From Methanomassiliicoccales archaeon (GTDB taxonomy: Archaea; Thermoplasmatota; Thermoplasmata; Methanomassiliicoccales; UBA472): a DNA stretch of 64,000 nucleotides. Below, in pieces: positions 15,108-56,486 of the stretch. Numbering within the stretch: the stretch's first letter is position 1; each line of letters begins with the position of its first letter. The translations under genes were made by a program, and so were the position numbers. The notes under the pieces were generated by a model. The model worked only from the letters and a program-made list of their open reading frames with translations, was not told where the DNA came from and ran no database searches. The DNA is taken from positions 1 through 64,000 of the forward strand of contig DATKZX010000008.1 in assembly GCA_035527755.1 (NCBI GenBank). The letters are read 5' to 3'.

Positions 15108-15494
15108 ATGAACTCATATCCGACCAGATGGACAAGGCAGATGAAGGTCACCGTGGACATTGTTTATGATAGCGAGGGACCGCTCATGGCGGACCAGATC
15201 TATGAACTGGCCCGAGAGAAACTTCCCCGCATCAGCCTGGGCACGGTATATCGAAACCTCAACCGATTGGTGGCCATAGGATTGATATCCGAGACCAATG
15301 TCGGATCGATGCAATGCTTCTTTGCCCATCCCTATTCCAACACCCATCTGGAATGTCGGATCTGTGGCCGTTTACAAAGTGTGCCGTACGACCTATCCTT
15401 GACCCAAATTGCCAAGGATACCGGGCTGACATTGGACGGATATGAACTGCGTCTCAAGGGCGTATGCCAGGAGTGTGCCGATAAATGCACATAA
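15108..15494 (+). CDS. Fur-family metalloregulator (candidate cobalt/nickel repressor)
   Basis: A winged helix (MADQIYELAREKLPRISLGTVYRNLNRLVAIGLI is the Fur DNA-binding core) is followed by a dimerisation domain with HLECRICG and CQECADKC, two CxxC-type structural zinc sites, and histidines in FAHPYSNTH for a sensory metal site. At 128 residues it is short for the family. ATG 15108 is preferred because the earlier in-frame ATG at 15096 lies inside the palindromic operator. The stop overlaps the cbiM start by ten bases, so it is the first gene of the cobalt-transporter operon. Metal specificity (Co, Ni, other) is inferred from this context only. Confidence 0.88.
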   Translation: MNSYPTRWTRQMKVTVDIVYDSEGPLMADQIYELAREKLPRISLGTVYRNLNRLVAIGLISETNVGSMQCFFAHPYSNTHLECRICGRLQSVPYDLSLTQIAKDTGLTLDGYELRLKGVCQECADKCT

Positions 15495-16147
15495 TGGAAG
15501 GGTACCTGGACCCATGGTGGTGTCTTTTTTGGACCATGCTATCCGCTCCTTTCCTGGTTTATGGTTTCTATACGATCCGCCGTCTCATCAGGGAGGACCC
15601 AGCGCAGAAAACGTTGTTAGCTTTGTCCGGGGCCTTCATATTCGTGCTTTCATCCTTCAAGCTACCGTCGGTCACTGGCTCCTCCTCTCATCCTACCGGA
15701 ACTGGGTTTTCCACCATGTTCTTCGGCGTTGGTGTGACCTCGGTCATGTCCTTCATCGTACTGATCTTCCAGGCTTTGCTTCTGGCGCACGGGGGGATCA
15801 CCACCATGGGGGCGAACGTGTTCTCCATGGGCGTGGCCGGCCCGTTCGTGGCTTACATGGCCTTCAAAACAATGAGCAAGGCTGGAATTCGCACTCCTAT
15901 CACTGTTTTCATCACCGTGTTCTTGGCCGGTATCATGACCTACGTGACCACCGCCGTACAGCTGGCTTTGGCCTACGGCACATTCTCCGAGTCATTGGTC
16001 AGTTTTCTTTCGGTCTTCGCCGTAACCCAGATCCCCCTAGGGATCGTTGAGGGCATACTATTCACAATCTTCGTGGATTATCTGCAGAGAGCGAGACCTG
16101 ACCTGACGGACAGGGTGTTCCCCAGGAGGGTGACCGATGAATCATAG
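15485..16147 (+). CDS. cbiM: Cobalt ECF transporter membrane subunit CbiM
   Basis: Substrate-binding membrane component of an energy-coupling-factor transporter for Co2+ (or Ni2+). The protein begins MHIMEGYLDPWW, the conserved N-terminus in which Met1 and His2 coordinate the metal; this fixes the ATG at 15485 although it overlaps the fur-like stop. Six to seven membrane segments follow, with SSSHPTGTGF and LLAHGGITTMGANVFSMG, both characteristic of CbiM/NikM. 220 residues is a normal length. Forms an operon with cbiN, cbiQ and cbiO. Confidence 0.95.
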   Translation: MHIMEGYLDPWWCLFWTMLSAPFLVYGFYTIRRLIREDPAQKTLLALSGAFIFVLSSFKLPSVTGSSSHPTGTGFSTMFFGVGVTSVMSFIVLIFQALLLAHGGITTMGANVFSMGVAGPFVAYMAFKTMSKAGIRTPITVFITVFLAGIMTYVTTAVQLALAYGTFSESLVSFLSVFAVTQIPLGIVEGILFTIFVDYLQRARPDLTDRVFPRRVTDES

Positions 16148-16430
16148 GCACTATTACATTCTGGGTTTTACCGTCATGGCCGTGATCCTGGTGTCGGCGG
16201 TGCTTCTCAATCCCAATTCGGATTTCTCGGGCACTGACGATAGTGGTGGGGATATCATCTCCGATACGGATCCGGACTATCAGCCCTGGTTCAACAGTCT
16301 ATGGGAACCCTCTGGGGAGCTGGCGACGCTTCTATTCACTTTGCAGGCAGCCATCGGCGCCCTTGTGATCGGTTATTTCCTGGGGAGCAACAAGGCCCGT
16401 AAAGGAATAGGCCGTTCACAGGAGAAGTGA
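16137..16430 (+). CDS. cbiN: Cobalt transporter accessory subunit CbiN
   Basis: Small two-helix protein that assists metal loading of CbiM. The 97-residue product has an N-terminal helix (YYILGFTVMAVILVSAVLL), an acidic extracellular loop (DDSGGDIISDTDPDYQPWF) and a C-terminal helix (LLFTLQAAIGALVIGYFLG), the CbiN layout. It overlaps cbiM by 11 bases and has a GGTGA ribosome-binding site six bases before the ATG. Confidence 0.9.
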   Translation: MNHRHYYILGFTVMAVILVSAVLLNPNSDFSGTDDSGGDIISDTDPDYQPWFNSLWEPSGELATLLFTLQAAIGALVIGYFLGSNKARKGIGRSQEK

Positions 16431-16431
16431 A

Positions 16432-17217
16432 ATGTTCGAACTGGACGAGCTTGCTTATCGTTCTTCCGCCTTGAAATGGTCGCCGACCGGTAAGTTCCTA
16501 TTTGTTCTGACGTTGCTCATCTCCTCATTGCTGGCCAAGTCCATGCTCGTTCCGATGATGGTCTTGGTGGTGGGGGTGCTGTTGCTTGGATACTCCATGC
16601 GCTTCCGGTTCCCAAAGATCATCGGTATCATAATTCTGGAAACTTTGGGGATGATCGTTCTAGGCGGAGTGGTCATCGCTGCGGTGACCCCCGGGCTAAC
16701 CATCTGGAGCGTCGACCTGGGTCTATTCGTTCTTTCCTTCTCGGATACCGGGGTCAGTACCGCATCCCTAGTGACGCTGCGGGCCTTGGCCGGCATAAGC
16801 GTCATGCTCTTTTTCGCTACATCCACTCCCATCCCGCACTTCGCAGATATGCTGGTGCGTTTCAGGGTACCGAAGGAGTTCACCGAACTGATGGTACTGG
16901 TCTATCGCTACTCCTTTATGCTGTTAGATGAGGCGGGTAGGATGCACCTCGCGGCCCAATGCCGACTGGGCTTTCTCGGACGTCTGAACAGCGTGAAGAC
17001 ATATGCCAAGATGATGACCGGTATGTTCATTCGGTCCATCGAAACCGCCGAGAGGTCCAATCAGGGCATGCAGTGCCGCAACTATCAGGGCAGCATAGGG
17101 ATGCTTAGGGAGCCGAAAGGTATGAGCTACGCCTGGGTCGCCATCTGTGTGATGAGCTTCCTCCTCCTACTGCAATTGAACGATGTCTGTGTCCGATCTG
17201 GCATTCTTATGGGGTGA
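16432..17217 (+). CDS. cbiQ: Cobalt ECF transporter T-component CbiQ
   Basis: Integral membrane subunit that couples ATP hydrolysis in CbiO to CbiM. At 261 residues it has about five membrane segments. Its cytoplasmic coupling helices carry the T-component signature in QCRLGFLGRLNSVKTY and MQCRNYQG, where the Ala-Arg-Gly-type motifs normally lie. One base separates it from cbiN, and GGAG precedes its ATG. Confidence 0.93.
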   Translation: MFELDELAYRSSALKWSPTGKFLFVLTLLISSLLAKSMLVPMMVLVVGVLLLGYSMRFRFPKIIGIIILETLGMIVLGGVVIAAVTPGLTIWSVDLGLFVLSFSDTGVSTASLVTLRALAGISVMLFFATSTPIPHFADMLVRFRVPKEFTELMVLVYRYSFMLLDEAGRMHLAAQCRLGFLGRLNSVKTYAKMMTGMFIRSIETAERSNQGMQCRNYQGSIGMLREPKGMSYAWVAICVMSFLLLLQLNDVCVRSGILMG

Positions 17218-17221
17218 AAGA

Positions 17222-18364
17222 TTGGACGGCCCACTTCTGGAATGTCAGAACATATGCTTCGAATATCCCGGGCGGGGGATGGCCCTTCGGGACATCAGCC
17301 TGACGATCGAAGAGGGAAGGAAGACGGCCATACTGGGACCCAACGGTGCCGGTAAATCCACATTGTTCCTGCACTTCAATGGGGTTTTCAAACCCAAGAG
17401 CGGTCAAATGTTGTACCAGGGATCACCGCTGGTATATCGTAACAAGGAACTGAGCCAGCTACGCAAGGAGGTGGCGGTGATACTGCAGAATCCGGACGAT
17501 CAGATATTTTCCGCCACCGTCGAGGAGGATGTGGCCTTTGGTCCATTGAACCTGGGACTCCCTCGGGATGAGGTCGAGGCCAGAGTGGACGAGGCCCTGT
17601 CATTGGTAGACCTAACGCACAATAGGGAACGACCCTCCCAGCAATTGTCCTTTGGCCAGAGGAAGCGACTAGCTCTGGCAGGCGCTTTGGCCATGAGGCC
17701 CAAGGTCCTCATCATGGACGAGCCCACCGCCGGTCTGGACCCCCACATGGTCCAGGAGGTATTGGAATTGACCGAGGAGTTGCATATGAAAGGGATAACG
17801 CTCATCATGTCGACCCATGAGATGGAGGTGGCCTATTCCTGGGCGGACGATTTCAAAGTGGTCCACCAAGGTCGTCTCCTTTACTCCGGACCAGCGGAGG
17901 AGCTTTTCGCCAACCGAACCTTGCTGGAGCTTTTAGGCTTTCAGGCCCCGTCGGTCTACCGAATGAACGAGGAGATGCACCGTTCCGGCCTGATGGAACG
18001 GGAACCGGTGCCCAGGGATATGACGGAAATGAGGCTGAAGATGTGCCGCATGAACCGGAGACAGGTAGGTGATCTACATATTCGTGAAGTGGACCAGGAA
18101 CACGTGCCGGCGGTACGGGATGTTCACGAAATGCTATCCAATGGCAAGGCCGTGGGGTACTACGGTTCCAAGGCAAAGCACCTACTGGCCATGACCCTGC
18201 CCACCGACGTTCGGCTCCCCGGGCTCACCGCATGTTTGGATAAGATGATCGACGGCAGGGAAGCGGTCCTTTTCGCGGAAAAAGATCTGATTCCGGCGAT
18301 TATGCATCATATTAATAATTTAGCCCACCGGTATCATGTCAAAATCACTGTTGTACAGGAATAA
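17222..18364 (+). CDS. cbiO: Cobalt ECF transporter ATPase CbiO with C-terminal extension
   Basis: ABC ATPase powering cobalt uptake. It has Walker A LGPNGAGKST, Q-loop LQNPDDQIFSATVEEDVAFG, signature LSFGQRKRLALAGALA, Walker B VLIMDEPTAGLDP and the switch histidine in MSTHEME. After the ~260-residue ABC domain, a further ~115 residues start near LKMCRMNRRQVGDLHI and end MHHINNLAHRYHVKITVVQE. I do not recognise this part; it is longer than typical CbiO. Start: TTG 17222 has a GGGTGA ribosome-binding site, while ATG 17183 lies inside cbiQ. Confidence 0.92.
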   Translation: MDGPLLECQNICFEYPGRGMALRDISLTIEEGRKTAILGPNGAGKSTLFLHFNGVFKPKSGQMLYQGSPLVYRNKELSQLRKEVAVILQNPDDQIFSATVEEDVAFGPLNLGLPRDEVEARVDEALSLVDLTHNRERPSQQLSFGQRKRLALAGALAMRPKVLIMDEPTAGLDPHMVQEVLELTEELHMKGITLIMSTHEMEVAYSWADDFKVVHQGRLLYSGPAEELFANRTLLELLGFQAPSVYRMNEEMHRSGLMEREPVPRDMTEMRLKMCRMNRRQVGDLHIREVDQEHVPAVRDVHEMLSNGKAVGYYGSKAKHLLAMTLPTDVRLPGLTACLDKMIDGREAVLFAEKDLIPAIMHHINNLAHRYHVKITVVQE

Positions 18365-18471: not shown

Positions 18472-20493
18472 ATGGACCTAGGACTGGGAATTGATACCGG
18501 AGGCACGTACACTGACACAGCATTGGTCGACCTGGTCGATGGCAGAGTGATAGCCAAGGCCAAGGCATTGACCACCAGGAACGATCTGAGCATCGGCATT
18601 TCCGGCTCGATAAAGAACCTAGGCCCAATACCGGTCAAAGACATCCGACTGGTCTCTTTATCCTCCACATTGGCAACGAATTCTGTAGTGGAGGGCAAGG
18701 GTTGCCGGGTGGCTCTGATAATCGCCGGAGAGGAGTATAAACAAAGCATCCCTATAGAGCACGTCGTCCAGGTTCAGGGAGGGCACACCATTCGTGGGAA
18801 GGCCAACTGCGATATCGACCTGGTCGCAGCCATGGATTTTGTGAAGGGCATAGCAAACCAGGTGGACGCCATCGCGATCTCCACCTTTTTCAGCGTACGA
18901 AATCCTGAGCACGAGATCGCTTTAAAGGACATGATATCCAGCAACTGGGGCATCCCGGTGGTCTGCGGTCATGAGCTTTCCACTCAGCTGGGCTTCCATG
19001 AGAGGACTCTGACAGCGGTCCTGAACGCCAAGTTGATACCGATAATGACCGACCTCATCCAATCGGTCATTAAGGTGCTGAAAGAGAACTCCATATCAGC
19101 CCCTTTGATGATCGTCAAAGGCGATGGATCGCTAATGAGTGAAAAACTGGGAAAGGAGCGCCCGGTGGAGACCATATTATCCGGTCCGGCAGCCAGCCTG
19201 ATCGGGGCGAAGAATCTGACCGGTGAGGAAGAGGCGGTGGTGGTCGACATAGGAGGGACGACCACCGACATTGGCGTGCTGCGCGGGGGGAAACCCCGTT
19301 TGGATCCCGAAGGGGCAATAATAGGAGGGTGGCGCACCCGTGTCAAGGCCGCGGACATATCCACGTCCGGTATCGGTGGAGACAGCCGGGTGGTCGTGGT
19401 CAACGGCCACATATTACTGGGGGCGCTTAGGGTCATGCCGCTATGCATAGCATCCGTTCAATACCCTCGAATACTCGAGAGCCTGAAGAAGGTCAAGGGG
19501 CTCAAGCCAACCCCCCAGGCCACTCACATCGCCCTGGAGAACATACTGCAGGCCGATGAGTTCTTCATATTCTCCCGCTCGGTCAAGGGATACGATCTCT
19601 CCCAGAACGAGGAGTTCCTGGTGGAGAGCATCAAGGATGAGCCGAAGACCTTGATGGAGTTATCCGAAGCCACTGGTGTGCATCCCTACAGTTTTAATGT
19701 TCGCAAGCTTGAGGAACTGGGCATCATCACTCGCATTGGCTTTACCCCCACAGACGCCCTGCACGCCTCCGGGGAGTATGTCGAATACGATGCGGAAGCG
19801 TCGACCCTGGCCGCTGATTATCGGGCCGAACTATGTGGCGTGGACATCAAGGAGTTCTGCGCAACGGTAAAAGAGGCGGTCATCCAAAAGATAACCAAGG
19901 AGATAATCTTCCGCCTGGTCTACGAGGACTGCGGTAAGATGGCCCATTGCGATGTCTGCAACGTACTATTTGATAAGATGACCACCCAGCGTCCAGGCAT
20001 CGATTTCTCTGCTGACATCAGAGTGCACAAGAAGATAATAGGCATCGGGGCGCCCATCGCCGCCTATCTCCCGTCCGTGGCGCAGAGATTGCACACCGAA
20101 CTGCTCATGCCTGTGAACTCGGACGTGGGGAACGCCGTCGGGGCCATCACCAGCAGTATAATGGAGTCGGTAGAGGTGCTGATCAAGCCCAAGCCTGGGC
20201 TGGGAGTGATGGAGGACCCACCCTGCACCATGCACTCCATGGATGAGATGAGGGAGTTCGAGACGATCAGCGAGGCCACCAACTATGCCAGGTCCTGGGG
20301 GGAGAGCAAGGTACGACAGAGGTCCGTAATGGCCGGGGCCGACGAGATCGAGGTCATAGTGGAGAACGAACGGATAATGGGTCAGATCGGAAAATCATGG
20401 GGTGAAGGCTTGCTTTTGGAGATCCACATGAAAGTAACGGCAGTGGGCAAACCCCGCATGTACTTCGAGGTGGAGCATGAGCGAACAGATTGA
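18472..20493 (+). CDS. Hydantoinase/oxoprolinase HyuA-family (ASKHA) protein
   Basis: An ATPase of the acetate/sugar kinase-Hsc70-actin fold as in HyuA: the phosphate-1 loop is GIDTGGTYTDTALVD at the N-terminus and the phosphate-2 loop is VVVDIGGTTTDIGVL near residue 260, with SGIGGDSRV after it. Around residues 405-455 an inserted helical segment (TLMELSEATGVHPYSFNVRKLEELG) resembles a winged helix. True hydantoinases/oxoprolinases hydrolyse cyclic amides; here the neighbours are DGC cysteine proteins and, convergently, a CobW GTPase with a corrinoid methyltransferase, so activation of a metal or corrinoid centre is an alternative. ATG 18472 is chosen after TATA ATTATAAA at 18412. The downstream DGC gene overlaps by 17 bases. 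Confidence 0.75.
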   Translation: MDLGLGIDTGGTYTDTALVDLVDGRVIAKAKALTTRNDLSIGISGSIKNLGPIPVKDIRLVSLSSTLATNSVVEGKGCRVALIIAGEEYKQSIPIEHVVQVQGGHTIRGKANCDIDLVAAMDFVKGIANQVDAIAISTFFSVRNPEHEIALKDMISSNWGIPVVCGHELSTQLGFHERTLTAVLNAKLIPIMTDLIQSVIKVLKENSISAPLMIVKGDGSLMSEKLGKERPVETILSGPAASLIGAKNLTGEEEAVVVDIGGTTTDIGVLRGGKPRLDPEGAIIGGWRTRVKAADISTSGIGGDSRVVVVNGHILLGALRVMPLCIASVQYPRILESLKKVKGLKPTPQATHIALENILQADEFFIFSRSVKGYDLSQNEEFLVESIKDEPKTLMELSEATGVHPYSFNVRKLEELGIITRIGFTPTDALHASGEYVEYDAEASTLAADYRAELCGVDIKEFCATVKEAVIQKITKEIIFRLVYEDCGKMAHCDVCNVLFDKMTTQRPGIDFSADIRVHKKIIGIGAPIAAYLPSVAQRLHTELLMPVNSDVGNAVGAITSSIMESVEVLIKPKPGLGVMEDPPCTMHSMDEMREFETISEATNYARSWGESKVRQRSVMAGADEIEVIVENERIMGQIGKSWGEGLLLEIHMKVTAVGKPRMYFEVEHERTD

Positions 20494-20824
20494 TGTGGCC
20501 ATATGCAGCGGGTACAGTCCTGGTGCTAGGGTGCTGAGGGCGGCGGTGAGGGAGCTGACCAGGGAAGAAAATATTAGGGTGGTGACAGTCGCTCCCGCCC
20601 TGGCTGAATTGCCGAAAGCTATGGAAGAGATGCGATCGCTTCAATTCCGTAAGGTACTGTTGGTGGACGGTTGCGAGGGAGGGTGCGGTCTTCTGGTGTT
20701 AAATCGATTTGAAGTGCTGCCCTCTTCCATTATCATGATCGACAAGCATTTCAACGTCACTCGCAAAGGCATCGATGAAACGAAAGAACGCATCCGCCAG
20801 ACGCTGAAGGAGATGCGAGGATGA
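20477..20824 (+). CDS. DGC-type putative zinc-binding protein 1
   Basis: The 115-residue protein resembles the DGC family (named for its Asp-Gly-Cys motif, cysteine-rich and putatively zinc-binding). It starts with a VAICSGYSPGARVLRAAV loop and carries the DGC signature in VLLVDGCEGGCGLLVL. No catalytic activity is known. A GAGGTGGA ribosome-binding site lies in the 3' end of the HyuA-family gene, which overlaps by 17 bases. The next DGC gene overlaps as ATGA, so the three genes are translationally coupled. It could pair with its sister protein as a heterodimer. Confidence 0.65.
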   Translation: MSEQIDVAICSGYSPGARVLRAAVRELTREENIRVVTVAPALAELPKAMEEMRSLQFRKVLLVDGCEGGCGLLVLNRFEVLPSSIIMIDKHFNVTRKGIDETKERIRQTLKEMRG

Positions 20825-21198
20825 GAAAAGGAGTGGTCGTATGCGGAGCCAACGGGGAAAGAGGGTACCTGCTGGAGAAAGTGACCGAGGCGTTCGCCAA
20901 AGACAACATGAGCAAGGTCATTCAGTTCTCGGTCTGCACTGTCGGACTTAGTCCAATAATGTTGGAGATGGGCGGGGTGGACATGTCTTCACTGGTGACG
21001 GTCAACGGCTGCCGCAACCGTTGCTGCGACCGGATGATGGAAAAGAACGGGTTGGGGATCGGAAGTTCCATTACGATCGACGATCACGTGGCACGGGGGT
21101 TATCTCCATGCCAGTTCACAACGTCCTTTGATTTCCCGGAGCCATCGGAAGAGGAAGTGAAGGCCGTGGTCAAGGCCATGGAAGAAGCGATCCGCTGA
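20821..21198 (+). CDS. DGC-type putative zinc-binding protein 2
   Basis: The 125-residue relative of the preceding protein has an N-terminal VVVCGANGERGYLLEKV loop and a cysteine cluster VNGCRNRCCDRMM in the place where the sister has DGCEGGC. Cys in FSVCTVG and SPCQFT add further candidate ligands. ATGA overlap with the preceding gene. It converges with the minus-strand zinc-ribbon gene with no gap (stop at 21198, next stop at 21199). Function unknown. Confidence 0.65.
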   Translation: MRKGVVVCGANGERGYLLEKVTEAFAKDNMSKVIQFSVCTVGLSPIMLEMGGVDMSSLVTVNGCRNRCCDRMMEKNGLGIGSSITIDDHVARGLSPCQFTTSFDFPEPSEEEVKAVVKAMEEAIR

Positions 21199-21510
21199 TC
21201 ACCGGCTCTTCTTCCAACCCTGTTCCTGGTAGTAGCTGCTGACAACCGATGAGATATGATCCGAGATCTCTCGTTCCCTCATCTTTCCATTAACATGCGG
21301 CGTTTCCCGTATGTAGAACTCATGATCGCACTTGCCACAACGCACCTTGGGACAGGAGTTCATTACCTCTGGGCAGCCGCGGCAGGCGAAGGTACGTGCG
21401 TAGGTTATGGAGAATTCAAATCCACAGTTAGGGCATTTGAACTTGCGAATGGAATCCACGCTGTTCCGGGAGATGCCCTTCGCTTTCATAGATTGATAGT
21501 AGGTTTCCAT
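21199..21510 (-). CDS. Zinc-ribbon protein downstream of the CobW-type GTPase
   Basis: The ~103-residue soluble protein has two zinc knuckles, CPNCGFEF and CGKCDHEF, plus a CRGCPEVMNSCPKVRC cluster between them, seven or more cysteines in all. ATG 21510 follows a perfect GGAGGT ribosome-binding site six bases upstream, better than TTG 21516. It is the last gene of cobW-21513-zinc ribbon, all overlapping or abutting. A metal-acceptor or electron-transfer role is only inference. Confidence 0.6.
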   Translation of the reverse strand: METYYQSMKAKGISRNSVDSIRKFKCPNCGFEFSITYARTFACRGCPEVMNSCPKVRCGKCDHEFYIRETPHVNGKMREREISDHISSVVSSYYQEQGWKKSR

Positions 21511-21512
21511 GG

Positions 21513-21986
21513 TCAACCTCCGTGGTGCTCCACGCTCTTTTCCGTCTCATAATAGTCCTTGATCACATGGAAGGTAATCTCTCGAGACTTGGACAGACCA
21601 TCCAGGACGCCCATGGTCAGCTCGCGGACCTCGGGGTCCCAAATTCCATGCACTATGACATGCACGATCACATCCGCGTTCTCGACGATATCGCTCTTCA
21701 GTTGTCTGGTGATGTTCACCTGCATCTTCTGGTGTATCAGGGAGAATCCTACGTTGGAACCCTCATCCACCATCATGAACGCTTTAACATGCCCGATCAG
21801 GTCCGCTCCGTGATGAAGGCAGGCATCGGTCACCTGGATGAGCAACTCCTCCACAAAGGAGATGGCCTTGTTCGCCGGCGCACCTTTCCCGAAATTCATT
21901 TGCATGTGAAGGGAGAACTTACCCAGCTCATCCACGGCACGATGCATTTCCAAATGCAGGTCGTCATCTTCATCAAGTTCGGTCAT
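21513..21986 (-). CDS. Hypothetical protein coupled to the CobW-type GTPase
   Basis: Not recognised. The 157-residue protein starts with an acidic stretch (TELDEDDDLHLEMHRAVDEL) and has many histidines (HLEMH, DACLHHGADLIGH, VIVHVIVHG, VEHHGG) that could bind metal ions. Its ATG overlaps the GTPase stop as TGATG, so the pair is coupled. A metal-delivery partner of the GTPase is plausible from context; no catalytic motif supports more. Confidence 0.55.
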   Translation of the reverse strand: MTELDEDDDLHLEMHRAVDELGKFSLHMQMNFGKGAPANKAISFVEELLIQVTDACLHHGADLIGHVKAFMMVDEGSNVGFSLIHQKMQVNITRQLKSDIVENADVIVHVIVHGIWDPEVRELTMGVLDGLSKSREITFHVIKDYYETEKSVEHHGG

Positions 21987-22657
21987 CAGGCGCCCCCTCC
22001 ATAATTCTTCTTCAGCAATTCCTTCTCACACGATTCATCATAACGGGGGGAGGTCCTGGTCTCTATCAAAGTGGCCACTTCCTTGACACCCTGGTTGTTG
22101 CGACCGGATCCGAACATGATCTCAGCGTTGGGGTTGATGGCTTTGGCTAACTGCACCGATAGGTCGATCTTTTCCTTGGTGGCACTGTCCACTTTATTGA
22201 TGAAGATCACGTCGGCCTCACGGATCTGGGTCTCGACCAGGCGGCGCACCGCATGCATGAGCTCCTCGATCCTCAGCGAGTCGACCAGGGTGATGACCGG
22301 GGCGTGGACGATGACGTCGTCCATCTCCTCCTCGGAGTACTCGGCCGCCCGTTTAAGCCCCCAGGGTATGGCCACTCCCGACGGCTCGACGATGACGATG
22401 TCCGGTTTGAACGTGTTGTAGAGGATCGCGATGGTGTTGGCGAAGTTACCAGCTATCTGACAGCATATGCATCCGCCGGAGATCTCCTTGGCCTTCAGTC
22501 CGTACATCTCGATGAACTTAGCATCGACGTTTATCTCTCCCACGTCATTGACAATGATGGCGATTTTATGGCCACGGTCCACCAGGATCTTGGCCAATTC
22601 AATGAGGAACGTGGTCTTTCCACTTCCAAGAAAACCTGCAACCTGAGCGATCTTCAT
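21986..22657 (-). CDS. CobW/COG0523-family G3E GTPase (metal chaperone)
   Basis: The P-loop is VAGFLGSGKTTFLIELA and the family metal-binding motif is GGCICCQ (CxCC). VEPSGVAIP and the guanine-specificity NKVD complete the G domain. At 223 residues it lacks the usual CobW C-terminal domain and so resembles short HypB/UreG/CobW hybrids. Members hydrolyse GTP to insert Zn, Co or Ni into targets. It heads the minus-strand group and lies about 100 bases downstream of the corrinoid methyltransferase, whose zinc or cobalt centres are plausible clients (inference). Confidence 0.85.
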   Translation of the reverse strand: MKIAQVAGFLGSGKTTFLIELAKILVDRGHKIAIIVNDVGEINVDAKFIEMYGLKAKEISGGCICCQIAGNFANTIAILYNTFKPDIVIVEPSGVAIPWGLKRAAEYSEEEMDDVIVHAPVITLVDSLRIEELMHAVRRLVETQIREADVIFINKVDSATKEKIDLSVQLAKAINPNAEIMFGSGRNNQGVKEVATLIETRTSPRYDESCEKELLKKNYGGGA

Positions 22658-22715
22658 GAGTTCACCAGTATCTCCGGAAATCAGATTCCAACTATGAATA
22701 TGTTGTTAAAATATT

Positions 22716-22742
22716 TGGAAAAGAAAAAGGAAAAAATTTAGA
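22716..22742 (-). terminator. T-rich terminator after the methyltransferase gene
   Basis: Read on the minus strand, the 3' flank of the methyltransferase has T-runs of six, five and four (plus-strand A-rich tract 22716-22742). This suits termination of the corrinoid protein/methyltransferase transcript before the GTPase operon, whose own promoter would lie about 22670-22710. Confidence 0.5.
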
Positions 22743-22757
22743 TGATGGCCGAAGCCA

Positions 22758-23858
22758 TCAGTTGCTGGTTACCTGACCATACTGTTTGACGGTGTCCACG
22801 ACCTCCTTGATGTTCTCAAGGCGGGTGGTGACAGACGGCGGTACCTCGCATCCGGAGGCGACGCAGTACCTGGATTTCAGGCCACGGGCGCACAGGGCGG
22901 TCTTGACCTCCTGCACCAGGTTCATGGTGGTCTTCTGCATCTTCTCTTGGCTCCACCTGACGAAACCTTGGGGGTCGATCTGACCGGCCACTAGGCAGTT
23001 GTCAGCGTAACCCTTCTCGATGGTCTCCTTCGGTGACGGAGAACCGGGTATCAGCGGGTAGTATGCCATGGAATAGATGGCCGGCTTCATCTTATTGATC
23101 TGAGTGTCCAGATGGGGCAGGTCTGCGCAATTGTGGACGCAGAAGGCCATTCCCTCCTTGGCGGTCATCTCATTGAGCGAGCCCGCGTACTTTTGCTGGC
23201 CCTCGAACTCATCATATTCCTTGTCACCCAGGCAAGAGTAGCTGCCCCAGAGATAATCCCACACCAGTCCAGCTGGTTTGGCCTTTGCCATTCCCTGGAT
23301 CATCAGCTTGTCGTACTCGGTGATGGTGGCCAGGGCCTTGTGGACAGCGCTCGGGTTGTTGTACATGTCCATGAAGACCTTCTCCGCGCTCGCCGCCTGG
23401 GTCAGGACCAGTAATGGTCCTTCCAAGAAACCTGCGGTTATGGTCTCGTTCTTCAACGCGTCGACGAAGAGCTTGGTGCCTTCGATCAGAACGCTGGACC
23501 TTCCCTTGGTGACGTCGGGGACAACAAGTTTCTCGTAGTCCTCGGGTCCCTTGATCACCGGGTCGTCCACGAACGGTGTGTTCTGCTCGTCCATCCTCAC
23601 GCCCGATCCAAGGTCTCCGGCCATCACCGACAGGTCCATCAGACCTATGGTGAAATCGAAGTCGAAGTACTTCTGCCCGGTGATGAATCCCTGAGCGAAC
23701 TTCTTGGGGTCCGAGCACCAGTCCCTGTATAGCATCTTTCCGTCCCCGACCGTCCTGCGGCAGACACCGCAGGCGATGGGATACACAGGCAGCCTGTCCA
23801 CCGGTTGGTTGGTCAGCGCCGCCACGCACCGTTCCTGATGATTCATTGTGTCAGCCAT
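22758..23858 (-). CDS. UroD-fold corrinoid methyltransferase (MtaA/MtbA/CmuA/OdmB-like)
   Basis: Zinc methyltransferase of the uroporphyrinogen-decarboxylase fold, 366 residues. The opening NHQERCVAALTNQPVDRLPVYP is typical of MtaA/MtbA. The zinc motif H-x-C...C appears as FCVHNCADLPHLD and ASGCEVPP near the C-terminus. Members either move methyl from methyl-corrinoid protein to coenzyme M (MtaA/MtbA) or from a substrate to the corrinoid (CmuA, OdmB/MtvB). Pairing with a dedicated corrinoid protein immediately upstream (stop abuts ATG) leaves both possibilities open. No in-frame TAG is present, so pyrrolysine is not involved here. Confidence 0.85.
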   Translation of the reverse strand: MADTMNHQERCVAALTNQPVDRLPVYPIACGVCRRTVGDGKMLYRDWCSDPKKFAQGFITGQKYFDFDFTIGLMDLSVMAGDLGSGVRMDEQNTPFVDDPVIKGPEDYEKLVVPDVTKGRSSVLIEGTKLFVDALKNETITAGFLEGPLLVLTQAASAEKVFMDMYNNPSAVHKALATITEYDKLMIQGMAKAKPAGLVWDYLWGSYSCLGDKEYDEFEGQQKYAGSLNEMTAKEGMAFCVHNCADLPHLDTQINKMKPAIYSMAYYPLIPGSPSPKETIEKGYADNCLVAGQIDPQGFVRWSQEKMQKTTMNLVQEVKTALCARGLKSRYCVASGCEVPPSVTTRLENIKEVVDTVKQYGQVTSN

Positions 23859-24497
23859 TTACATCGCCCCTTTGACCTTCTTTACAGCTTCCTGAGCATT
23901 GATGGCATGCATGTCTGCACCGATATCGTCGGCGAACGGTTGGGAAGTGGGTGCGCCACCAATGATGATCTTTACGTTCATGCGGTCCCCGCTCTCGATC
24001 AATCCGTCGACGACCGACTTCATGCCGTCCATGGTCGGGGTCATCAAGGTGCTCATAGCCAGTATGCTAGCTCCATCCTTCTTTACCGAGTTGACGAAGT
24101 TCTCGATCGGCACATCCCTGCCGTAATCATGCATGTCTAGCCCGGCCGCGGTCAACATGGTCTTCACGATGTTCTTACCGATGTCGTGCACGTCACCCTC
24201 GACGACCCCAATGACTCCAACCACCCTTTTGGCGGTTCCATCCTTTGGAATATGGGGTAGCAAAATGTCCAATCCGCCGTACAATGACGCCGCAGCCAGT
24301 AGTACTTGGGGTAGGAAGAATTCGTGCTTGGCGTACTTGTCACCAACTATGGTCATCCCCTTGACCAATCCATTATCTATGGCGTCCAAGGCCTTAACTC
24401 CGCTGTCCAATGCCTCCTTGGCGAATTTTATCGAATCAGCCTTGTTACCAGTGATAACCGCGTTCTCCAATGCTGCCAGAATTTCCTGTCCTTGCAT
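23859..24497 (-). CDS. Methyltransferase corrinoid protein (MtaC/MtbC/MtmC-like)
   Basis: Carries methyl groups on cobalt of a bound corrinoid. The N-terminal helical cap (about residues 1-85) is the B12-binding-2 domain. The Rossmann B12-binding domain has the axial-histidine motif GDVHDIGKNIV (D-x-H-x-x-G), then SILAMSTLMT and IIIGGAPTSQPFADDIGAD for the nucleotide tail. 212 residues is the usual length. The gene is the first of a two-gene operon with the UroD-type methyltransferase and has a strong TATA box and an upstream inverted repeat. Confidence 0.93.
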   Translation of the reverse strand: MQGQEILAALENAVITGNKADSIKFAKEALDSGVKALDAIDNGLVKGMTIVGDKYAKHEFFLPQVLLAAASLYGGLDILLPHIPKDGTAKRVVGVIGVVEGDVHDIGKNIVKTMLTAAGLDMHDYGRDVPIENFVNSVKKDGASILAMSTLMTPTMDGMKSVVDGLIESGDRMNVKIIIGGAPTSQPFADDIGADMHAINAQEAVKKVKGAM

Positions 24498-24809: not shown

Positions 24810-25090
24810 CTAGATCATTTTTCTTGAATGGGCCTTCAAGGACTCGATGCCCCCTTCCAGGACAACGATATCATGAAAACCCATTCTAATAAGCTGGTCA
24901 TAGGCCGATCGCTCCGCTTGCCGATCTTGCAGTATATGAGCAGAGGAGTATCGCGGTCCAGCTGATCGAGCTTGTTTCGGATGTCGACCACTGGCACGTT
25001 CTTGGCCCCATCGATCCTCTCGGCATTAAATTCATCAGGATCGCGTACGTCCAATAGCAAATATTCCCCGGTCTCGACCTTTTCCAACAA
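24810..25090 (-). pseudogene. Rhodanese-like domain gene with frameshift
   Basis: The first part reads LLLDVRDPDEFNAERIDGAKNVPVVDI...LLIYCKIGKRSD, a rhodanese domain including the active-site Cys loop. Near 24905 the frame is lost. A shift of one base restores the family ending AYDQLIRMGFHDIVVLEGGIESLKAH and a stop at 24810. Missing one G in a GGG/GG run would explain it, so either a real inactivating deletion or an assembly error. Upstream the frame stays open to 25183 (SDGKIVIVPADLF) but without ATG; TTG 25090 is the first usual start codon. Rhodaneses move sulfane sulfur. Confidence 0.7.
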
Positions 25091-25235
25091 TATTATGAAC
25101 AGGTCGGCCGGAACAATGACGATCTTACCGTCCGACCGTTGCCGTATGGAGTAATACTTTGACGGAAGAGTAGATGAAGTTGATCATTCCGTCGAGTAAC
25201 GATTATCTAGACCCCGCTACGTATCATGGCTCGAT

Positions 25236-39721: not shown

Positions 39722-39830
39722 GCCGGGGTGGCTCAGCCTGGTGGAGCGTCGGACTCATAGGGATTAGGAGCAAATCAAGACCCTCTCCAGGGAAATCCGA
39801 AGGTCAGGGGTTCGAACCCCCTCCCCGGCA
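39722..39830 (+). tRNA. tRNA-Met(CAT), elongator, with 35-nt intron
   Basis: Acceptor GCCGGGG pairs with CCCCGGC before discriminator A39830; no CCA is encoded. The anticodon stem is TCGGA/TCCGA with loop CTCATAA. A 35-base intron (39760-39794) splits the loop at the canonical position 37/38, leaving a 74-nt mature tRNA. Body sequence is typical of archaeal elongator Met rather than initiator or Ile2. A T-rich tract at 39838-39847 follows as terminator. Confidence 0.9.

Positions 39831-56381: not shown

Positions 56382-56486
<105 letters not shown>

Follow-up and report, generated by a model that had tools for sequence, protein, structure and literature searches.

A conserved gene neighborhood of Methanomassiliicoccales combining a corrinoid methyltransferase pair, a HyuA-like ATPase and a putative split CobW GTPase

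In this study, we analyzed a candidate corrinoid methyltransferase module of a Methanomassiliicoccales archaeon, located at positions 18472-24497 of a stretch of 64,000 nucleotides (nt) of contig DATKZX010000008.1, which as a whole is referred to as the window. The organism is a methanogen; its genome measures 1.68 Mb, is 99.7% complete and encodes McrA, and the window corresponds to contig 8. A first-pass annotation of the letters had placed eight genes at this locus, and all eight open reading frames (ORFs) are present with the domains named there, except that the second DGC protein (DGC2) falls just under the Pfam cut-off and that the zinc-ribbon protein (ZR) and the "His-rich" protein (HisR) gave no match in the Pfam scan, apart from weak zinc-ribbon matches of ZR.

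Eight genes in two operons

The forward-strand operon consists of hyuA, dgc1 and dgc2. The first gene (18472..20493, +) encodes a HyuA-like ASKHA ATPase of 673 amino acids (aa), belonging to clade A of Methanomassiliicoccales, with Pfam matches to Hydantoinase_A (3.7e-31), Hydant_A_N (3.9e-26) and MutL (3.3e-9). It overlaps by 17 nt with dgc1 (20477..20824, +), whose 115-aa product is a cysteine-containing DGC-domain protein (Pfam DGC 6.5e-11; 42.7 bits versus the PF08859 cut-off of 27) with C10, C66 and C70 invariant in the alignment. An overlap of 4 nt leads into dgc2 (20821..21198, +) for a second DGC-type protein of 125 aa with an NGCRNRC motif, which was assigned with the help of alignments and remains below the cut-off (2.4e-5; 24.8 bits).

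Arranged tail to tail with this operon is the reverse-strand operon corP-uroD-cobW-hisR-zr, and the stop codons of the two abut with zero gap (DGC2 stop at 21198, ZR stop at 21199). CorP (23859..24497, -) matches Pfam B12-binding and B12-binding_2 as well as TIGR02370 (205 bits versus the cut-off of 215.3), and its DxHxxG motif is found in 40/40 homologues; it is thereby predicted to be a standard methyltransferase cognate corrinoid protein. The following gene (22758..23858, -) encodes a methyltransferase of the UroD superfamily (Pfam URO-D 2.2e-40), here called UroD, in which the zinc ligands H242-x-C244 ... C337 are invariant and follow the HxC...C arrangement of MtaA/MtbA. The short CobW-type G3E GTPase (21986..22657, -; 223 aa; Pfam cobW 1.9e-38) has no C-terminal domain. 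It carries the CICC motif recognized in the first-pass annotation beside GFLGSGKT and NKVD motifs, CxCC is present in 27/27 homologues, and its best NCBIfam model, NF041053, gave 113 bits, under the cut-off of 180. The neighboring HisR (21513..21986, -) was identified by profile match as a putative stand-alone CobW-type C-terminal domain with invariant C56, H66, H109 and H113, and its histidine content is mild (7.6%). ZR (21199..21510, -) shows paired CxxC knuckles in the orthologue alignment.

Coupling of these genes by overlaps, as initially described, holds for HyuA/DGC1/DGC2 and for CobW/HisR, the latter sharing one base (TGATG). The ORF of ZR is readable from TTG 21516, but ATG 21510, located 2 nt past the HisR stop and with GGAGGT directly upstream, is more likely the start codon; therefore, the HisR/ZR junction is a near-overlap.

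Conservation of the neighborhood and its core

Conservation was assessed with the window proteins in tblastn searches of 40 retrieved HyuA loci, and by orthologue searches in 61 genomes. In addition, ten further loci with short flanks, not used in finding the pattern, were taken from a separate 390-genome sample of the phylum. In all three approaches, the genes were found to co-occur across Methanomassiliicoccales. A lack of conservation, which according to the first-pass annotation would refute the module, was not observed, and its reading as a corrinoid module is supported. Among the 40 loci, the full eight-gene set is kept in the window's family; a second family carries it on one strand together with extra corrinoid and HyuA copies, and a third family has CorP-UroD-(CobW-HisR)-ZR-HyuA without DGC. 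CorP-UroD-ZR was present in 10/10 of the further loci, with HyuA or CobW-HisR next to it where the flanks reach. Four genes that lie next to each other in several families make up the core, CorP-UroD-ZR-HyuA, whereas CobW-HisR and DGC1-DGC2 are lineage-variable additions, DGC pairs being seen in two families only among the 40 loci. The single eight-gene module assumed at first is thus upheld as a conserved linkage but shrinks to four core genes; as an obligatory unit, the eight-gene block was ruled out by the 40 loci and the ten further ones.

Recurring as it does in several families of Methanomassiliicoccales, the neighborhood is conserved far beyond chance. CorP lies within the fetched flanks of 31/40 HyuA loci, compared with ~5% expected on the basis of about five corrinoid proteins per genome. 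HyuA relatives occur in 58 and UroD orthologues in 36 of the 61 genomes, and UroD and ZR orthologues were found together in 34 genomes, UroD without ZR in 2, ZR without UroD in 0 and neither in 25. Fisher tests of co-occurrence gave 4e-15 for UroD/ZR and 1e-7 for UroD/HyuA, nominal values that treat related genomes as independent. Better evidence than these values is provided by losses within a genus, duplications and changed gene orders: orthologues of UroD, ZR and HyuA are all missing together from G004, G008 and G009 (three species of one genus; G009 is 99% complete), and the CorP-UroD-ZR-HyuA set is present twice in G042 and G048. In the 390-genome sample, the UroD clade is confined to Methanomassiliicoccales.

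This distribution bears on the idea that the module serves biosynthesis, e.g. of methionine from methyl-corrinoid, rather than methanogenesis. HxC...C zinc sites occur in methionine synthases too, and a direct linkage with genes of methanogenesis is lacking. However, a patchy spread over 36/61 genomes with absence from the near-complete G009 is ill-suited to an essential anabolic step, and the Pfam match of UroD is URO-D; we consider a biosynthetic role quite improbable.

Candidate roles of the methyltransferase pair, the GTPase and the ATPase

UroD-family genes number 11 in the genome. The module's UroD reached 51.6 and 56.4 bits and did not pass the MtaA/CmuA (235.4) and PRK06252 (244) cut-offs; in the tree, its clade stands apart from MtaA with a support of 100/100. 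Only two B12-binding_2 corrinoid proteins are encoded in the genome, both in HyuA-CobW-HisR-UroD clusters, namely in the window and in a second cluster (L032; G000:C2:77001-96000), which is located ~10-20 kb from mcrA and contains MtrA-like, MtrH-like, metallo-hydrolase, RamA, CobW2-HisR2, UroD2, MtaA-like, HyuA2 and CorP2 genes. MtaB and MttB are absent from the genome; MtmB/MtbB were not searched for. Since the genome has no third corrinoid protein of this type and neither MtaB nor MttB, the module appears to be one of the two visible points at which methyl groups enter via a corrinoid. For the same reason it names candidate enzymes to test for the use of methyl compounds by environmental Methanomassiliicoccales, and it is a testable candidate for methyl uptake in such organisms, this archaeon seemingly having none of the usual methanol and trimethylamine methyltransferases. 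As a separate observation, another UroD-family gene (L170:7599-10462; G000:C7) was seen by eye near cysteine desulfurase/IscU, methylenetetrahydrofolate-reductase-like and pterin-binding methyltransferase-like genes.

As in MtaABC and in MtmBC/MtbBC/MttBC with MtbA and RamA, a TIGR02370-type corrinoid protein is located beside a methyltransferase, and RamA is encoded in the genome. Unlike in these three-component systems, the methyltransferase belongs to a separate UroD clade and not to MtaB/MttB, and HyuA, a zinc ribbon, a putatively split CobW and a DGC pair are added. With MtsAB, compared by description, the module shares the pairing of a UroD-type methyltransferase with a corrinoid protein and a zinc thiol site; it differs in the low similarity of its UroD to the MtaA/MtbA/CmuA models and in the presence of accessory genes. 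UroD-CorP could accordingly be read as an MtsAB-like methylthiol:coenzyme M system, in which UroD would catalyze both half-reactions from a thioether (dimethylsulfide, methylmercaptopropionate) with no separate coenzyme M methyltransferase. The stand-alone UroD-CorP pair, its thiol-type zinc site and a genome without MtaB/MttB fit such a system; also, mtsA/mtsB genes have been reported in Methanomassiliicoccales (PMC4153887, PMC5011839, PMC10805028), and mtsA-type genes are expressed in Stordalen Mire (PMC10805028). On account of these reports, methylated sulfur compounds are possible methyl donors. Yet UroD, with 52-56 bits versus MtaA/MtbA/CmuA cut-offs of 235-244, forms its own clade, whereas MtsA is a relative of MtaA/MtbA, and an MtaA-like enzyme is encoded elsewhere in the genome (L032:7180-8301; passing the MtaA/CmuA subfamily cut-offs but falling short of that of the MtaA equivalog, with 313 versus 400 bits). 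An MtsAB-like system therefore seems to us a possibility, but a rather unlikely one.

Regarding the GTPase, the first-pass annotation listed a His-rich protein and a short CobW as independent genes; both exist, but the former is predicted to be the missing C-terminal half of the latter. Among 2129 ORFs, the HisR profile matched the C-terminal domain of CobW proteins of 373-385 aa from Methanosarcinaceae (6.8e-7, 2.5e-6 and 5.6e-4), and hhalign gave a probability of 95% for HisR versus this domain. An AlphaFold2 (AF2) model of HisR with a predicted local distance difference test (pLDDT) score of 85 yielded weak Foldseek matches to the CobW-family protein YjiA; it is the profile matches together with the gene pairing that carry the identification, the Foldseek matches alone being weak. 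By homology, CobW and HisR would form one two-subunit CobW GTPase. In Methanosarcinaceae, fused CobW genes occur in clusters with mtaA, hyuA and mtaBC, in Methanolobus in the form of mtaA-hyuA-mtaBC-cobW-ramA clusters. The genome of the window has the CobW-HisR pair three times, twice beside UroD/HyuA/corrinoid genes and once away from them, so that CobW-HisR is best described as a putative general two-subunit GTPase unit. The split and fused forms provide a Rosetta-stone link for a chaperone, of zinc or of cobalt, that would act on the methyltransferases of methanogens.

A link of CobW with corrinoid methyltransferases has already been published: archaeal COG0523 subfamily 13 co-localizes with the zinc-dependent mtaA and mtaB, plus mtaC and ramM (Haas 2009; PMC2770081). 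The module resembles this subfamily, by motif and linkage, in having a CxCC CobW beside a corrinoid methyltransferase; it differs in that the GTPase apparently comes in two pieces, a G-domain protein of 223 aa and a C-terminal domain encoded on its own, and in that the partner is UroD-type. A literature search combining CobW, corrinoid methyltransferase and methanogen returned no relevant paper. Because subfamily 13 co-localizes with zinc-dependent mtaA/mtaB, zinc delivery to the methyltransferase would be the most economical role for CobW/HisR, with ZR as a plausible partner. Nearly every genome of the order also has a ZR paralogue; in the genome of the window, it (L165:7981-8298; G000:C6) is encoded ~2 kb away from a further UroD-family gene.

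HyuA has the HyuA domains and the ATP site of hydantoinase/oxoprolinase enzymes, and its ATP-binding motifs are invariant across 22 relatives. Among solved structures, those most closely related to it are 5-oxoprolinase, N-methylhydantoinase and acetophenone carboxylase, which would agree with a catabolic amidohydrolase (e.g. N-methylhydantoinase-like) preparing a methylated substrate for the methyltransferase. But HyuB, the usual hydantoinase partner subunit or domain, is absent from 60/61 genomes, the window's own included, and relatives of HyuA are encoded alongside methyltransferases whose substrates are unrelated (MttB, MtaB, UroD). Consequently, a constant association of HyuA/DGC with amide-metabolism genes was not found, HyuA is predicted not to be a hydantoinase here, and an amidohydrolase function is highly improbable.

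A scan of named genomes covered 80 HyuA loci, two of them from Methanomassiliicoccales. In Syntrophomonadaceae and Halanaerobiaceae, HyuA relatives are found beside MttB, corrinoid protein, DUF1638 and pterin-binding methyltransferases, and in clusters of Methanolobus, Methanococcoides and Methanimicrococcus beside MtaA, MtaB and MtaC, sometimes accompanied by RamA/RACo. In the HyuA tree, the copies of Methanomassiliicoccales form two clades on the side with the Methanosarcinaceae and the MttB-linked Bacillota copies. Since its relatives stand beside MttB, MtaB and UroD systems, also with RACo/RamA, the role of HyuA appears to follow the corrinoid protein and not one substrate. The module thereby draws attention to HyuA as an ATPase without assigned role and a repeated neighbor of corrinoid methyltransferases, in archaea as well as in anaerobic bacteria. 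Hydantoinase-like genes named "HydA" from clusters for glycine betaine methyltransferase (PMC9768040) and the HyuA-like MA4395/MA4396 downstream of mtaCB2 (PMC11619418) have likewise been described without assigned function; unlike there, where other methyltransferases are present, the module is conserved order-wide with ZR, CobW/HisR and DGC. In one genome (L069; G011:C31:3000-21000), a PylD-like gene, RamA and an SBF transporter are encoded upstream of a HyuA orthologue, which suggests a link with methylamine metabolism in G011.

The first-pass annotation had further suggested that HyuA and the DGC proteins may take the place of a missing RamA. No classical RamA is encoded in the window, but one is encoded in the genome (L032:3065-4714; TIGR04270, 707 bits), beside the second HyuA. 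An ATP-dependent reductive activation of CorP by HyuA and DGC would be in line with the ASKHA fold, the tight linkage to corrinoid proteins and the invariant DGC cysteines, which could be redox-active. However, HyuA has no ferredoxin-like domain, no match to the RACo middle/C-terminal ASKHA or iron-sulfur domains was obtained for it in Pfam and NCBIfam, and no DGC genes were found beside HyuA in one HyuA-keeping family. With a RamA gene in its own genome, and with RamA/RACo next to HyuA in several other clusters, HyuA is unlikely to replace RamA. Like RamA/RACo and GlmL/MutL, HyuA is an ASKHA ATPase tied to a B12 protein; unlike RamA/RACo, it belongs to the HyuA subfamily, has no ferredoxin domain and coexists with RamA. 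Its weak MutL-family match, together with the fact that B12 enzymes are known to have ASKHA partners, suggests corrinoid cofactor loading or exchange.

For DGC1, the AF2 model (pLDDT 89) shows a flavodoxin-like alpha/beta fold. Its Foldseek matches, to flavodoxin or receiver folds, were unspecific (E above 0.001 throughout) and included no firm PDB match, and a literature search revealed no relevant paper tying DGC to corrinoid. In one Methanosarcina genome, too, a DGC-like protein (L084:12805-13185) is encoded close to HyuA, and the pairing of HyuA with DGC may therefore extend beyond Methanomassiliicoccales.

With moderate confidence, we favor a dedicated corrinoid methyltransferase system of Methanomassiliicoccales with GTP-driven zinc loading by CobW/HisR/ZR and with HyuA and the DGC proteins as an ATP-dependent service factor of CorP. 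How methyl group, metal and cofactor would be transferred or loaded, and which metal this is, we infer as follows. UroD, via zinc on H242, C244 and C337, would transfer the methyl group from the donor to Co(I) of CorP, from which a separate MtaA-like enzyme, encoded elsewhere, would pass it to coenzyme M. The two-subunit CobW/HisR GTPase would most likely bring zinc to UroD, with ZR as a docking or transfer partner. HyuA would serve CorP in an ATP-dependent manner other than RamA-type reductive activation, most likely by loading or exchanging the cofactor; the DGC proteins would act as its partners by means of their cysteines.

Several points weigh against such a dedicated system. A corrinoid or C1 partner was present at only 16/80 HyuA loci of the named-genome scan with the profiles used, and Rhizobiales copies adjoin malate synthase; within the 61 genomes, HyuA occurs without UroD/ZR in 9. 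Some third-family genomes with CorP-UroD-ZR-HyuA have no near CobW-HisR or DGC pair, and therefore neither is essential to the core in all species. The third CobW-HisR pair (L171:6292-7301; G000:C15) is located away from any corrinoid gene, and therefore the pair is not corrinoid-specific. Finally, zinc is a presumed cargo, and the neighboring cobalt transporter could argue for cobalt.

A broader proposal combines two claims, namely that HyuA with ZR (plus DGC in some families) represents an unrecognized class of ATP-dependent factors for the maturation or repair of corrinoid proteins, unlike RamA/RACo and common to MttB, MtaB and UroD systems, and that UroD-CorP constitutes a new system by which methyl groups enter methanogenesis where MtaB and MttB are missing. 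Taken jointly, this is tentative, and we would sooner expect one of its halves to fail than both to hold. In the literature searched, no description was found of the split CobW, of the order-wide CorP-UroD-ZR-HyuA core or of the generalization on HyuA.

Cobalt transporter and minor features of the window

The cobalt transporter genes cbiM, cbiN, cbiQ and cbiO (15485..18364, +; Pfam/NCBIfam) are located directly upstream of hyuA. CbiMNQO adjoins the module throughout its occurrences in genus g1 and G017 and also in G030, which belongs to another family, and is probably functionally linked to it. The CbiO ATPase (17183-18364, +) has ~110 extra C-terminal residues past its ABC domain. No cobalamin riboswitch or other RNA element was detected near the module at Rfam gathering thresholds in the window.

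On the other side of the module, a rhodanese-like gene (24836-25160, -) encodes 84 aa, and relatives have a 112-aa ORF at the same place beside corP; the gene in the window is possibly frameshifted. Two tRNA genes of ~100 nt (39722-39830 and 56382-56480, +) were found by Rfam and missed by ARAGORN, and both probably contain introns.

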